A DNA stretch of 29,360 nucleotides, taken from contig JAJPHF010000151.1 of assembly GCA_021325365.1 (NCBI GenBank), positions 1 to 29,360 on the forward strand, written 5' to 3'. Under the pieces are notes generated by a model. That model saw only the letters and a program-made list of their open reading frames with translations. It was not told the origin of the DNA and made no database searches. The stretch's first letter is position 1; each line of letters opens with the position of its first letter. This DNA comes from Pseudomonadota bacterium. Its GTDB lineage: Bacteria; Chloroflexota; UBA6077; JAJPHF01. Both the position numbers and the translations under genes were made by a program. Positions 7,626 to 22,600 of the stretch are shown piece after piece.

Positions 7626-7779
7626 CAATTAGCTAACAGCTATCAGCCATCAGCTATCAGCTCCCCGGCGGCGCGGCTAAGATGTGGTGAGAGTGCAGGC
7701 CGTGAGATGGAACGAACCCGAGTGCCGTCGCTGACAACCCGAAAGCCGCCTGCTGATAGCTGAGCGCTGATGGCTATTG
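7626..7779. repeat. Inverted pair of heptanucleotide arrays filling the rplI-dnaB gap
   Basis: The left arm (7631-7665) is AGCTAAC, AGCTATC, AGCCATC, AGCTATC, AGCTCCC. The right arm (7752-7779) is GCTGATA, GCTGAGC, GCTGATG, GCTATTG, in the opposite orientation. The element begins immediately after the rplI stop. The ATG of dnaB (7770-7772) is the last three bases of a right-arm unit, and the next two codons are also repeat. The inner sequence differs from that of the 3289-3401 element. Confidence 0.85.
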
Positions 7780-10382
7780 AGAACCTGCCGGCTGAGAACA
7801 GCCGGGAGCCGCTGCCTCCCCACAACACGGACGCCGAAGCCGCGGTGCTCGGCGGTCTGCTCATCGACCGCGACGCCATCGGGCGCGTCGCGACGTTCCT
7901 GCGTCCCGCCGACTTCTACCGCGAGCGCAACGCCACGATTTTCGCCGCGATGGTGGCGCTGTACGAGCGCCGCGAGCCCGTCGACTACCTCACGCTCTCC
8001 GACGAGCTGCAGCGCACCGGGCGCTACGACGAGGTGGGCGGCCTCGTCTACCTCTCCTCGCTGTTCAACGAGGTGCCGACCTCGCTGCACGTCGAGCAGT
8101 ACGCCCGCATCGTCGAGCAAGCCTCGCTCCGTCGCCGGCTGATCCGTGCCGCCGGCCGCATCGCCGGCCTCGGCTACGACGAGAGCCTGGAGGCCGAGAA
8201 GGCGCTCGAAGAGGCGGAGCAGGTGCTGTTCGCGGTGGCCGAGCGGCGCCTCAGCCGCGACTTCCGGAAGCTGGCGGACGTGCTGCGCGAGTACTGGGAG
8301 CAGCTGCTGCTGGCCGCCGACGTGGACCGCCTGGAGCGCGGCATCCCCACCAGCTACAAGGACCTGGACAAGCTGCTCGGCGGCCTGCAGCGCTCCGACC
8401 TGGTCATCGTCGCGGCGCGGCCCAGCATGGGCAAGTCGTCGTTCGCGCTCTGCCTGGCGCGCAACGCCTCGGTCGACTTCGGCGCCAAGGTGGGCATCTT
8501 CAGCCTGGAGATGTCGCTCGCCCAGCTCGCGCAGCGCCTCCTGTTCAGCGAGTCGGGCGTGGACTCCAGCCGCCTGCGGCAGGGCCTTCTGGGGCAAGTC
8601 GAGCGGCGCAAGCTGGCCGATGCGCTCGGCACACTGGCGAGCGCGCCGATCTACCTGGACGACACGCCGAACATCGCGCTCTCGGAGCTGCGGGCCAAGT
8701 CGCGGCGCCTGCACCAGGAGCTAGGCGGCCTGGACCTGCTGGTCGTGGACTACCTCCAGCTGATTCAAGGCAACGGCAAGGAGAACCGCGTCAACGAGAT
8801 CAGCGAGATCTCGCGCTCGCTGAAGGCGCTCGCCCGCGAGCTGGACGTGCCCGTGGTGGCGCTCAGTCAGCTCTCCCGCGCCGTCGAGAGCCGCTCGCCC
8901 CACATCCCCATGCTCTCGGACCTCCGCGAGTCGGGCTGCCTTACGGGCGATACCCTGGTGGCCCTCGCGGACGGGCGGCGGGTGCCGATCGCGGCGCTGG
9001 TGGGGCAGCAGCCCGAGGTCGTAACGCTCGACGGCTGGCAGGTCACGCACGGCCGCGCCAGCCGCGTCTGGTTGACCGGGCACCGCCCGGTCTATCGTCT
9101 AACAACGCGCAGCGGCCGGACCATTCGCGCCACCGCGAACCATCCCTTCCGGGTGCTGCACGGCTGGCGTGCCCTCGCGGACCTCGCGGTGGGCGAGCGC
9201 ATCGCGCTCCCTCGCCGCTACCCCGAGCCCCCCGCCGCCCAACTGTGGGACGACGATCGTCTCGTCTTGCTCGCCCATCTGATTGGCGATGGCTGCTATG
9301 TTCGGAGGCAACCCCTGCACTACACGAGCGCCTCCGAAGCGAACCGCGCGGCGGTCGAGCAGGCAGCCAAACAGGTGTTCGGCGTGGTCGCTCGCCGCGT
9401 AGTCCAGAGTAGCTGGCAACACGTGTACCTGACGGCGGGCGGCAACCGATGGTCGCCAAATCCCATCCACGTCTGGCTTCGGGAGCTTGGCATCGACGGT
9501 CAGCACTCGTACGAGAAGGTGATCCCGGAGGCCATCTTCCGCCTGTCGAGCGCGCAGATCGGGCTCTTCCTCCGCCATCTCTGGGCCACCGATGGATGCA
9601 CCCGCTTGCGCCGGACGGCACATGGCCAGACCGGCACCGTGTACTACGCGACGACCAGCCCCTACCTGGCGAGCCAGGTGCAGCACCTTCTTGTCCGCTT
9701 GGGTATCGCGTCGCGGGTCTATAGCACCCGGAAGGGGGACCAGCGTGTCGGCTATCAGATCCACGTGACAGGCAGTACCGAGCAACTGAAGTTCGCCCGA
9801 GCGGTAGGGGCATTTGGCGACCGGGTCGAACAGTTGGCTGAGATCGAGGACCTGTATCGCACCGTGGCGCCAAATCCGAATAATGACACCGTGCCCCTGG
9901 AAGTCTGGCGCGACGTGAGGACGGCGATGCAGGCGCTCGGCGTGTCGCAGCGCCAGATGGCCGCCCTGCGGGGCACCAGCTACGGCGGCACCAGCCACTT
10001 CTCGTTCGCCCCCACGCGGCAGACGCTGACCAACTACGCCGAGCTGCTACAGGATCAAAGGCTGCGGGAAGTGGCCGCTGCCGACGTGTATTGGGATCAG
10101 ATCGTTGCCATCGAGCCGGACGGCGAGGCCGACGTCTACGACATGACGGTCCCCGGAACCCACAACTTCGTGGCGAATGGGATGGTAGTACACAACAGCA
10201 TTGAACAAGATGCTGACGTCGTCATGTTCATCTACCGCGAGGAGGTCTACGACCGCGACACGGAGAACAAGGGCATCGCGGAGATTCACGTCGCGAAGCA
10301 CCGCAACGGCCCGACCGGCCAGGTGTCGCTGCTCTGGCTCGAAAAGCTGACGAAGTTCGTCGACCTCGGGGTCGAGCGATGA
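7770..10382 (+). CDS. dnaB: Replicative DNA helicase DnaB containing an intein
   Basis: 870 residues: extein 1-389, intein 390-809, extein 810-870, giving a mature helicase of about 450 residues, the normal DnaB length. The N-terminal domain starts LPPHNTDAEAAVLGGLLID. The RecA-like domain has Walker A ARPSMGKSS (about 216-224), Walker B LLVVDYLQL (about 322-330), LARELDVPVVALSQLSR and the SDLRESG/SIEQDADVVMF motif, which the intein splits. The C-terminus (HVAKHRNGPTG) is canonical. DnaB unwinds DNA at the replication fork. The stop overlaps the next gene's start by 4 bp (ATGA). The start codon comes from a heptad repeat. Confidence 0.97.
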   Translation: MAIENLPAENSREPLPPHNTDAEAAVLGGLLIDRDAIGRVATFLRPADFYRERNATIFAAMVALYERREPVDYLTLSDELQRTGRYDEVGGLVYLSSLFNEVPTSLHVEQYARIVEQASLRRRLIRAAGRIAGLGYDESLEAEKALEEAEQVLFAVAERRLSRDFRKLADVLREYWEQLLLAADVDRLERGIPTSYKDLDKLLGGLQRSDLVIVAARPSMGKSSFALCLARNASVDFGAKVGIFSLEMSLAQLAQRLLFSESGVDSSRLRQGLLGQVERRKLADALGTLASAPIYLDDTPNIALSELRAKSRRLHQELGGLDLLVVDYLQLIQGNGKENRVNEISEISRSLKALARELDVPVVALSQLSRAVESRSPHIPMLSDLRESGCLTGDTLVALADGRRVPIAALVGQQPEVVTLDGWQVTHGRASRVWLTGHRPVYRLTTRSGRTIRATANHPFRVLHGWRALADLAVGERIALPRRYPEPPAAQLWDDDRLVLLAHLIGDGCYVRRQPLHYTSASEANRAAVEQAAKQVFGVVARRVVQSSWQHVYLTAGGNRWSPNPIHVWLRELGIDGQHSYEKVIPEAIFRLSSAQIGLFLRHLWATDGCTRLRRTAHGQTGTVYYATTSPYLASQVQHLLVRLGIASRVYSTRKGDQRVGYQIHVTGSTEQLKFARAVGAFGDRVEQLAEIEDLYRTVAPNPNNDTVPLEVWRDVRTAMQALGVSQRQMAALRGTSYGGTSHFSFAPTRQTLTNYAELLQDQRLREVAAADVYWDQIVAIEPDGEADVYDMTVPGTHNFVANGMVVHNSIEQDADVVMFIYREEVYDRDTENKGIAEIHVAKHRNGPTGQVSLLWLEKLTKFVDLGVER
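8937..10196 (+). other. DnaB intein with LAGLIDADG-type homing endonuclease
   Basis: 420 codons inserted between Gly389 and Ser810, the same DnaB site used by the Rhodothermus marinus and Synechocystis DnaB inteins. Splicing block A is CLTGDTLVALADG with Cys1. Block B is TANHPF. Blocks F/G are VYDMTVPGTHNFVANG and VVHN, with Ser as +1 extein residue. Between them two dodecapeptide motifs of the LAGLIDADG/DOD endonuclease are intact: LLAHLIGDG and FLRHLWATDG, each with its acidic residue. All splice-site residues are present, so splicing and homing both look possible. From memory, the sequence resembles the Rhodothermus intein along its length. Confidence 0.95.
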
Positions 10383-20584: not shown

Positions 20585-21769
20585 ATGGACCCAGCAGCTC
20601 CCATCTACCTGGACTACAACGCCACCACCCCGCTCGATCCAGCCGTGATCGAGGCCATGCGCCCCTACCTGGAGCTGCACTTCGGCAACCCGTCGAGCGG
20701 CCACGCCTACGGACGCGCGGCCCTGGCCGGCGTCGTGGCGGCGCGCGCCCAGGTGGCAGCCCTGCTCGGCTGCGCCCCCGACGAGGTCGTCTTCACCGGC
20801 GGCGGCAGCGAGGCCGACAATCAGGCGCTCATCGGCGTGGCTCTCGCCCACCGCGACCGCGGCGATCACCTCATCACAACGCGGATCGAGCACCCGGCCG
20901 TGCTGGAGACGTGCCGCTACCTGGAGCGCCGCCTGGGCTTCCAGGTAACGTACCTGCCGGTGGACGAGCAGGGCCAGGTGGACCCGGCCGCGGTGGAGAC
21001 GGCGATCACGCCCCGCACGCTGCTGATCAGCGTGATGCACGCGAACAACGAGACCGGCGTCCTGCAGCCGATCGCCGCCATCGCCGCGCTGGCCCGGCGC
21101 CACGGCGTGCTGGTGCACACCGACGCCGCCCAATCGGTCGGCAAGCTGCCGGTCGACGTCACCGCGCTCGGCGTGGACCTGCTGGCCGTCGCCGGCCACA
21201 AGCTCTACGCGCCGAAGGGCGTGGGCGTCCTCTACGTGCGCCGCGGCACGACGCTCGATCCGTTCGTCCACGGCGCCGGCCACGAAGGCGGGCGGCGGGC
21301 CGGCACCGAGAACGTGGCGGGCATCGTGGGGCTGGGCGCCGCCTGTGCCGTGGCGCGGGAGCGGCTGTCGGCCGATCGGCCGCGGCTCACCCGCCTGCGC
21401 GACCGGCTGGAGCAGGCGCTAACGGCGGCCGGCTGGGTGCGGAACGGCCATCCGACGGAGCGGCTCCCCAACACCCTGAACGCCTCACTGATCGGCGCCG
21501 AGGGCGAGGCCGTGCTGCAGCGCGCGCCGACGGTGGCCGCCTCCACCGGCTCCGCCTGCCACAGCGGCCACACCGAGCCGTCGGCAGTGCTACTGGCGAT
21601 GGGCTTGACCCGGGAACGCGCGCTCGGCGCCGTGCGGCTGAGCCTGGGGCGCTGGACCACGGAGCCCGCCGTCGACCGCGCCGCCGCGGCCCTCATCGCG
21701 GCCGGGCGCGCGGCGCTGGATAGCCATCAGGTATCAGCAGTCAGCGGTCAGCAGACCACGCCCTCCTGA
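20585..21769 (+). CDS. Cysteine desulfurase, NifS/IscS type
   Basis: 394 residues, PLP fold-type I. It starts IYLDYNATTPLDP, followed by HFGNPSSGHAYGRAA, VVFTGGGSEADNQAL, MHANNETGVLQPI and HTDAAQSVGKLPV. The PLP lysine lies in VAGHKLYAPKGVG (about residue 208), followed by GGRRAGTENVAGIVGLGAA. The catalytic Cys is in STGSACHSGHTEPS (about residue 326). It removes sulfur (or selenium) from cysteine (or selenocysteine) for Fe-S, thio-cofactor or selenide supply. The ATG has GGAGGGAGG directly upstream. The final residues HQVSAVSGQQ are encoded by heptad repeats. The next gene is the putative selenoglutaredoxin, which makes a selenium role worth considering. Confidence 0.95.
   Translation: MDPAAPIYLDYNATTPLDPAVIEAMRPYLELHFGNPSSGHAYGRAALAGVVAARAQVAALLGCAPDEVVFTGGGSEADNQALIGVALAHRDRGDHLITTRIEHPAVLETCRYLERRLGFQVTYLPVDEQGQVDPAAVETAITPRTLLISVMHANNETGVLQPIAAIAALARRHGVLVHTDAAQSVGKLPVDVTALGVDLLAVAGHKLYAPKGVGVLYVRRGTTLDPFVHGAGHEGGRRAGTENVAGIVGLGAACAVARERLSADRPRLTRLRDRLEQALTAAGWVRNGHPTERLPNTLNASLIGAEGEAVLQRAPTVAASTGSACHSGHTEPSAVLLAMGLTRERALGAVRLSLGRWTTEPAVDRAAAALIAAGRAALDSHQVSAVSGQQTTPS
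21722..21756 (+). repeat. Heptanucleotide array at the 3' end of the desulfurase gene
   Basis: Five 7-bp units: AGCCATC, AGGTATC, AGCAGTC, AGCGGTC, AGCAGAC. It is read in frame as the C-terminal tail of the desulfurase. It is a single arm; no inverted partner is seen before the glutaredoxin gene. Confidence 0.75.
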
Positions 21770-21838: not shown

Positions 21839-21897
21839 AGAGCAGGCTTGTCGCCGGCGGCGACGGGCACCGATACCTGATGGGGAGGCTGAGGGGC

Positions 21898-22137
21898 ATG
21901 GCGAAGCGGGTCATCATGTACACCACCACCTGGTGAGTGTACTGCCGTACGGCAAAACGCCAGTTGGCGGAATTGGGCGTACCCTTCGAGGAAGTCGACG
22001 TCGAGGAGCACCCGGAGGCCGGGGCGATCATCGAGCAGCACACCGGCGGCTTTCGCACCGTGCCGACCTTCGACATCGACGGCAAGATCTACGTGAACCC
22101 GAACCGCGCGGAGCTCGAGCAGGCCGTGCGCGGCTAG
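21898..22137 (+). CDS. Putative selenocysteine-containing glutaredoxin (UxxC), TGA at codon 13
   Basis: 79 codons. The ATG has GAGGGGC just upstream. The translation starts MAKRVIMYTTTW, then TGA (21934-21936), then VYCRTAKRQLAELGVPFEE. It continues with VDVEEHPEAG, the cis-Pro motif TVPTFDIDG and NPNRAELEQAV, a complete NrdH/mycoredoxin-like glutaredoxin. The TGA stands exactly at the first (nucleophilic) Cys of the TTTWCxYC active site, and the downstream half shows no decay. A SECIS-like hairpin follows at the right distance. The likely reading is selenocysteine: U13-V-Y-C16. A caller that treats TGA as a stop would start at the GTG at 21937 and miss the first strand. Alternatives are a fresh nonsense mutation or a sequencing error (TGC to TGA). 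Confidence 0.8.
21937..21982 (+). promoter_or_regulatory. Candidate bacterial SECIS element
   Basis: Directly downstream of the TGA. The outer stem is GTACG (21947-21951) with CGTAC (21978-21982). After an internal loop comes an upper stem CGCC (21958-21961) with GGCG (21966-21969), capped by the tetraloop AGTT. The loop begins 25 nt after the TGA and has G in its second position. Both fit the known bacterial SECIS pattern (apical loop about 16-37 nt away, G among its first two bases). Structure is inferred by eye. Confidence 0.6.
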
Positions 22138-22279: not shown

Positions 22280-22534
22280 CTAGCTAAACGGCCCGGTGGG
22301 GAACGCGTCGCCAGGCACCGCCGGGTTGTCGAGCGGGCCCCCCTCCTGCTTGGTGATCCGCGCGTCCACGCCGAGCGTGTGCAGCGTCGCGCTGTCGCCG
22401 CTGCGCAGGGCTGCGTGCTCGTCGGGCGTCAGATCGTAGCCCGCTAGCGCGCCCGCCGGGTCGCTCTGCAGCCGCGCCCGGAACGCCGCGTCCGTGCTCG
22501 CGCGCTCGATCACCTGGTTCAATGCCTCGGACAT
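22280..22534 (-). CDS. Small leader-like peptide (NHLP/Nif11-style, possible RiPP precursor)
   Basis: 84 residues from an ATG with GGGAGA about 5 nt upstream; an in-frame ATG at 22582 would add 16 residues. Residues 1-50 (MSEALNQVIERASTDAAF, RLQSDPAGALAGYDLTPDE, ALRSGD) have the helical pattern xxDxxFRxxLxxDPxxALxxYxLTxxExxAL. It is shared by nitrile-hydratase-leader/Nif11-like RiPP leaders (for example the Os1348/Franean1_4349 groups) and by small LigA-type subunits. LGVDARITK then precedes a short Gly/Pro-rich tail ending PTGPFS that could be a core peptide. No maturation enzyme is visible nearby. The assignment rests on recalled family patterns; the function is unknown. Confidence 0.65.
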   Translation of the reverse strand: MSEALNQVIERASTDAAFRARLQSDPAGALAGYDLTPDEHAALRSGDSATLHTLGVDARITKQEGGPLDNPAVPGDAFPTGPFS

Positions 22535-22600
22535 CTCTATCTCCCTTTCTCCCTTCGCGCATCCGCGCTCCGTTAACGACATGATAGGTTCCGTTGCGGC

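Follow-up and report, generated by a model that had tools for sequence, protein, structure and literature searches.

Glutaredoxins with selenocysteine (Sec) in a UxxC site are an established bacterial family within PF00462 (PMC1794560, PMC9312934, PMC13188914). In the selenoprotein glutaredoxins of Geobacter, Moorella, and Alkaliphilus, as two of these papers describe them (PMC1794560, PMC13188914), a TGA-encoded Sec is the first residue of that site. Selenoproteins also occur in Uxx-star (NF041212), another glutaredoxin-like family. For Chloroflexota, two further papers (PMC4918011, PMC5736913) describe Sec in formate dehydrogenase and SelD, and our literature search, judged by titles and abstract openings, found no description of a Sec glutaredoxin from this phylum.

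Here, we analyzed a 29,360-nucleotide stretch of DNA (the window) with a glutaredoxin gene whose product, like the proteins above, belongs to PF00462 and has a TGA at the first position of its active site. We consider this protein a further member of the known Sec glutaredoxin family rather than a new kind of protein, because selenoprotein glutaredoxins are already known; what appears to be new is the lineage. The initial annotation was aware of no such protein described in its lineage, a remark that applies to the lineage only, as Sec glutaredoxins are established in other bacteria (PMC13188914, PMC1794560). Relative to those known proteins, the window protein differs in its Chloroflexota lineage, in its W-U-V-Y-C site, and in being closest to mycoredoxin-1 by both sequence and fold.

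The gene occupies a frame of 79 residues with a single internal stop, the TGA at residue 13 (Table 1). This frame runs from MAKRVIMYTTTW through the TGA to VYCRTAKRQLAELGVPFEEVDVEEHPEAGAIIEQHTGGFRTVPTFDIDGKIYVNPNRAELEQAVRG and the terminal TAG; the residues directly 3' of the TGA begin VYCRTAKRQLAELG, and the site reads TGA-VYC. When aligned with Cys homologs, the TGA falls on the first Cys of their CxxC. The read-through protein matches PF00462 (Pfam Glutaredoxin) at 2.7e-17 over residues 5-63 (63.2 bits versus a cut-off of 22.9), and in its AlphaFold2 model (mean pLDDT 87) the strands and helices follow one another as in a glutaredoxin, strand 1 (residues 5-9) and helix 1 (residues 14-26) flanking the residue encoded by the TGA. 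Cys16 presumably acts as the resolving thiol, as glutaredoxin chemistry would lead us to expect, and we take Pro56 to be the cis-proline of the glutaredoxin TVPT motif.

A mechanical scan for in-frame TGAs, filtered on an open frame and on the neighboring residues, returned this TGA as the only one that we recognized, by eye, within a conserved redox motif. Both of its flanks match P0003, P0004, P0005, and P0008, the four closest full-length Cys homologs, at 70-78% identity, a match that marks the TGA in this glutaredoxin frame as no chance occurrence. The initial annotation had claimed a TGA at the first active-site Cys of a glutaredoxin that was otherwise intact, and had proposed a search for Cys-for-TGA pairs with conserved flanks; we saw the former, with MAKRVIMYTTTW and VYCRTAKRQLAELG on either side, and found the latter in these four homologs.

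Table 1. Positions in the window of the glutaredoxin gene, its proposed functional elements, and the adjacent desulfurase gene
Feature	Position	Strand	Basis
Glutaredoxin gene, 79 codons including one in-frame TGA, stop TAG	21898..22137	+	translation, PF00462, AlphaFold2 model
TGA codon, proposed Sec (U13), position 1 of U-V-Y-C	21934..21936	+	aligned to first Cys of CxxC
Cys16 (TGC), presumed to be the resolving thiol in UxxC	21943..21945	+	sequence
Pro56 in TVPT motif, expected cis-proline	22063..22065	+	invariant in a 20-sequence alignment
Shine-Dalgarno GGGGAGG for ATG 21898	21882..21888	+	duplex energy
Apical hairpin of the candidate SECIS, CGCC-AGTT-GGCG, with its loop 25 nt past the TGA	21958..21969	+	base pairing
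GTACG, 5' arm of the outer stem of the candidate SECIS	21947..21951	+	pairing with 21978-21982, by criteria chosen afterward
CGTAC, 3' arm of the outer stem of the candidate SECIS	21978..21982	+	pairing with 21947-21951, by criteria chosen afterward
NifS/IscS-type cysteine desulfurase, possible sulfur or selenium donor	20585..21769	+	TIGR03402, 462.6 bits, below cut-off of 530.75

We compared the window protein with solved structures and with curated family models. Mycoredoxin-1 (Rv3198.1, PDB 2lqo) was its best PDB match by sequence (5e-11) and by fold, although mycoredoxin-1 has Cys where we propose Sec. In the fold search, 2lqo (Mrx1, TMq 0.76) was followed by cGrx2 (4tr0), and the entry 7c10 ("Dithiol cGrx1"), representing a protein that we take to be natively a selenoprotein, also ranked near the top. 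The mycoredoxin model TIGR02200 was the top NCBIfam model, with a score of 63.5 bits that lies below its cut-off of 89.5, and the score against NF041212 (55.1 bits) likewise lies below the cut-off of 66. Sec would be a feature shared with members of Uxx-star, although the window protein, unlike Uxx-star, retains the second Cys.

The relatives of the window protein fall mainly into forms with Cys at the site and forms that begin after it. Of 20 proteins returned by a single-sequence search, 6 are full-length and have Cys there, and the other 14 start after the site. A profile search returned 326 proteins, and the best 120 of these 326 comprised 23 starting after the site, 92 full-length proteins with CxxC (a class set by pattern match), and 5 other full-length proteins. 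The start lies exactly one residue past the TGA in five shortened clusters (P0002, P0006, P0007, P0009, and P0142). The first of these contains the window gene's own shortened product: the initial annotation had predicted that a gene caller would report a truncated 66-residue protein from GTG 21937 or a pseudogene, and this open reading frame is present, its product being listed in the protein database as P0002, a cluster at 90% identity whose 16 member sequences come from 5 contigs, the longest of 39,297 bases. Seven of the 23 shortened clusters are known only from contigs of <1,000 bases, for which the end of the contig might equally explain the missing start, and five others include long contigs (66,149, 62,133, 39,297, 35,084, and 32,383 bases). 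Since the shortened relatives are known from their protein starts rather than from their DNA, a TGA at their site is something that we infer from where the predictions begin.

The region downstream of the site is highly conserved across the aligned relatives. We placed every shortened protein, together with 28 of the 97 full-length proteins chosen by hand, on a tree of 51 sequences that was built from few columns and has many unresolved forks; 21 of the 23 shortened proteins fell into one group of 26 (support 82/73) together with five Cys forms, namely P0003, P0004, P0008, P0143, and P0146, and the shortened P0021 and P0173 were placed outside it. Among the four shortened proteins of the single-sequence search in which all 14 post-site residues are visible, none of these 14 columns varies, versus 21 of 52 later columns (hypergeometric P 0.002); the four closest Cys relatives vary at 8 of the 14 columns just after the site, versus 20 of the 52 later ones. 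The residues RQLA, whose codons in the window gene (CGC CAG TTG GCG) form the candidate hairpin considered below, are kept in 9 of 9 shortened proteins where they are visible versus 2 of 97 full-length proteins (Fisher P 1.7e-11, with relatedness ignored). Close relatives make up just 7 of the full-length set, and RQLA is present in two of these seven Cys forms; both this count and that of the shortened relatives ignore kinship. A scan of viral contigs returned no relative of the window glutaredoxin.

We looked for the machinery that reads TGA as Sec in related organisms. The nearest named relatives of the window's DNA polymerase I (P0022 in the protein database) are Chloroflexota metagenome-assembled genomes, and the nearest of 201 genomes from the phylum was G076, at 72% over the polymerase half of this protein; on the basis of this one gene, the window probably belongs to the same class as G076. 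We found selA in 26 of the 29 genomes of that class (controls, 1/14), selB in 25 (controls, 2/14), and selD in 22 (controls, 2/14). A tRNA-Sec scored above the cut-off in 23 of the 29; because 5 of 14 control genomes also exceed this cut-off, it is not specific on its own. ARAGORN called tRNA-SeC with anticodon TCA at all 10 of the 10 best loci of the class, and all four components (tRNA-Sec, selA, selB, and selD) are present in G076 itself. All but one of the 23 SelD loci of the class have an in-frame TGA, and of 20 loci that we fetched, 19 showed this codon directly. Given these counts, most organisms of the class look able to decode TGA as selenocysteine.

Within this class, five glutaredoxin matches at E <= 1e-14, from 4 of the 29 genomes, included no TGA form, and G076 contains no close copy of the window glutaredoxin. 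A search of 400 Chloroflexota genomes gave a best match of 57% identity, in G068, which is a Cys form; among the matches listed, one had a TGA (G252, about 39% identity) and the others had stop-free frames.

G252 belongs to a second Chloroflexota class, which includes G001 (Dehalococcoidia bacterium), and its glutaredoxin (L119, 5020-5541, minus strand) reads MKVTVYTTQT-TGA-PHC, followed by a C-terminal extension that looks PDZ-like by eye. When we used this protein as a query, matches at E <= 1e-14 came from 91 of the 393 genomes in the class; an in-frame TGA was present in 52 of the 109 matches listed, as counted from that listing. Of 30 loci that we fetched (L135-L164), 22 have a TGA, in every case at the first active-site Cys and thus at the same position as in the window gene, and the other 8 have Cys. 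The active sites in this class read T-U-P-[HYW]-C or T-U-G-Y-C. We found selA in G252, G042, and G189, and did not find it in G001, although G001 carries a TGA glutaredoxin. G042 and G189 also each have a thioredoxin-like frame, recognized by eye, that reads MFTGDW-TGA-GYC (L044 at 2816, plus strand, and L052 at 403, minus strand); this frame, in two genomes that both bear selA, is a second candidate selenoprotein.

The TGA glutaredoxins of this second class share a SECIS-like hairpin downstream of the TGA. All 21 TGA loci tested (L162 was excluded) have a hairpin with 6 or more base pairs and a G-containing loop that starts at position 26 or 27 when the T of the TGA is position 1, and hairpins of that length occur in 2 of the 8 Cys paralogs, at other positions. 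Over a 7-pair helix, 90.5% of pair cells are formed in the TGA set, a value that none of 500 shuffles reached, and 44.6% are formed in the 8 Cys paralogs; three of the TGA sequences use a helix register offset by one base. Two-sided changes occur at two helix pairs of the TGA set. Since 46 of 500 shuffles equaled this and a slide of -1 gave a higher covariation score (0.185 versus 0.144), the case for the hairpin leans on conservation more than on covariation, which is modest.

Compared with this hairpin, the candidate in the window gene lies one codon later and is shorter, with a similar loop and four pairs only. When the stretch was recoded synonymously 2,000 times, 61% of the versions formed a hairpin of this type, as did 88 of the 449 TGAs in the window, and because the type is so common, the hairpin proves nothing alone. 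For the two-stem form, which adds the outer stem, the counts were 108 among 20,000 synonymous recodings and 24 among the 449 TGAs, by criteria fixed after we had seen the window and G252 cases; it is present in G252 and absent from 2 of 2 Cys homologs and 17 of 17 SelD sites. A third pairing option is CCAGTT-GGCGG-AATTGG, and when 45 to 60 bases are folded for minimum energy, a structure unlike any of these is favored. The folding energy of the window stretch was equaled by 14 to 64 of 200 shuffles, and synonymous recodings were as stable or more so in 86% of cases for 48 bases and 45% for 39 bases. We also built a covariance model (R1) from the 21 sequences of the second class, and its best match in the window was the glutaredoxin TGA (17.2 bits, E 0.0023; the next scored 7.1 bits). 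As the match leaves the hairpin section unaligned, this score comes mostly from the flanks.

The most serious alternative to a selenoprotein is a pseudogene, or a glutaredoxin gene that is intact except for a Cys codon recently mutated to a stop. Such a change needs only one substitution, and both the unclear statistics of the window SECIS and the lack of a close copy in G076, the nearest genome examined, are compatible with it; we nevertheless consider it quite unlikely, given that 23 of the best 120 clusters begin past the site, five of them exactly one residue past, that P0002 has 16 member sequences on 5 contigs, that the post-site part is highly conserved with the frame and Shine-Dalgarno sequence intact, and that the nearest class has the Sec machinery in most of its genomes. 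For this TGA, read from the assembly, a sequencing or assembly error is very improbable when the 16 members of the P0002 cluster come from 5 contigs and P0006, P0007, P0009, and P0142 start at the identical residue. We find it equally hard to credit that translation really starts at GTG 21937 and yields a 66-residue protein that has lost the first active-site residue: this frame exists and is in the protein database, but its product would be without the nucleophile and the first strand of the model, its predicted ribosome binding is weaker than that of ATG 21898 (-6.6 versus -12.5 kcal/mol, duplex energies computed with an anti-Shine-Dalgarno sequence), and the 12 codons 5' of the TGA match the Cys homologs. 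Reassignment of TGA to an ordinary amino acid such as Trp, for which we found no support, is extremely improbable, since TGA is the ordinary stop of 8 of the 19 window genes and Trp at the site would give no catalytic thiol.

By far the best reading, and in our view a very probable one, is therefore that the window gene encodes a selenoprotein glutaredoxin in which the in-frame TGA is read as Sec, because Cys homologs keep the flanks, relatives are shortened, the nearest class has the Sec machinery, and the second class has TGA forms with a hairpin. These same four lines of evidence support the proposal of a probable selenoprotein glutaredoxin made in the initial annotation. We infer Sec incorporation at residue 13, and the same holds for the precise SECIS element, the substrate, and the redox partner. 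The product would be a small glutaredoxin/mycoredoxin-like selenoprotein whose active site, U-V-Y-C, results from decoding of UGA as Sec by SelB and tRNA-Sec. A disulfide or mixed disulfide of a target would be attacked by the Sec13 selenolate, Cys16 would resolve the resulting intermediate, and a low-molecular-weight thiol or a thioredoxin-type reductase would recycle the glutaredoxin. Attack by Sec followed by resolution by Cys is the expected chemistry of the glutaredoxin family.

A more speculative proposal, which we regard as rather unlikely, is that the Sec glutaredoxin is a mycoredoxin working with a mycothiol-like thiol, that it evolved apart from the TGA glutaredoxins of the G252 class, and that its SECIS stem shrank to about four pairs in palindromic Arg-Gln-Leu-Ala codons. 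MshC did not score above its cut-off in any of the 29 genomes of G076's class. Proteins resembling MshC or CysS, at 347-386 bits, are present in 14 of the 29 by our own count, and the two that we tested score best as cysS. A CysS/MshC-like protein at L126 and L127 has the motif TPYDTTHLGHA. Separately, the window contains a gene resembling mycothiol-S-transferases (PF04978, 28241-28837).

The NifS-like gene upstream, whose start we picked by eye from its conserved N-terminus, ends 128 bases before the glutaredoxin start on the same strand. In G092 (L132, 815-3529), selD with a TGA, a gene for a CGGC-motif protein, and nifS lie in that order on one strand, and this nifS is a 65% relative of the window's NifS-like gene. 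By analogy with this single neighborhood, the NifS-like gene of the window may have a role in selenium supply. On the other side, the glutaredoxin gene adjoins a gene for an Os1348/NHLP-type RiPP precursor-like peptide (22280-22582, minus strand; NF038399 over cut-off). Elsewhere in the window, positions 7770-10382 encode a replicative helicase DnaB with an intein that bears a LAGLIDADG domain.

Gene callers render the window gene and 22 related clusters as proteins of 52-66 residues without the first active-site residue, and for this reason a selenium-dependent redox protein has probably been overlooked in uncultured Chloroflexota. The 21 sequences from the second class provide a SECIS alignment for glutaredoxins in this phylum. 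Moreover, the shortened, presumed Sec forms and the Cys forms are close in sequence, which makes the exchange of Sec and Cys in one small enzyme directly testable.
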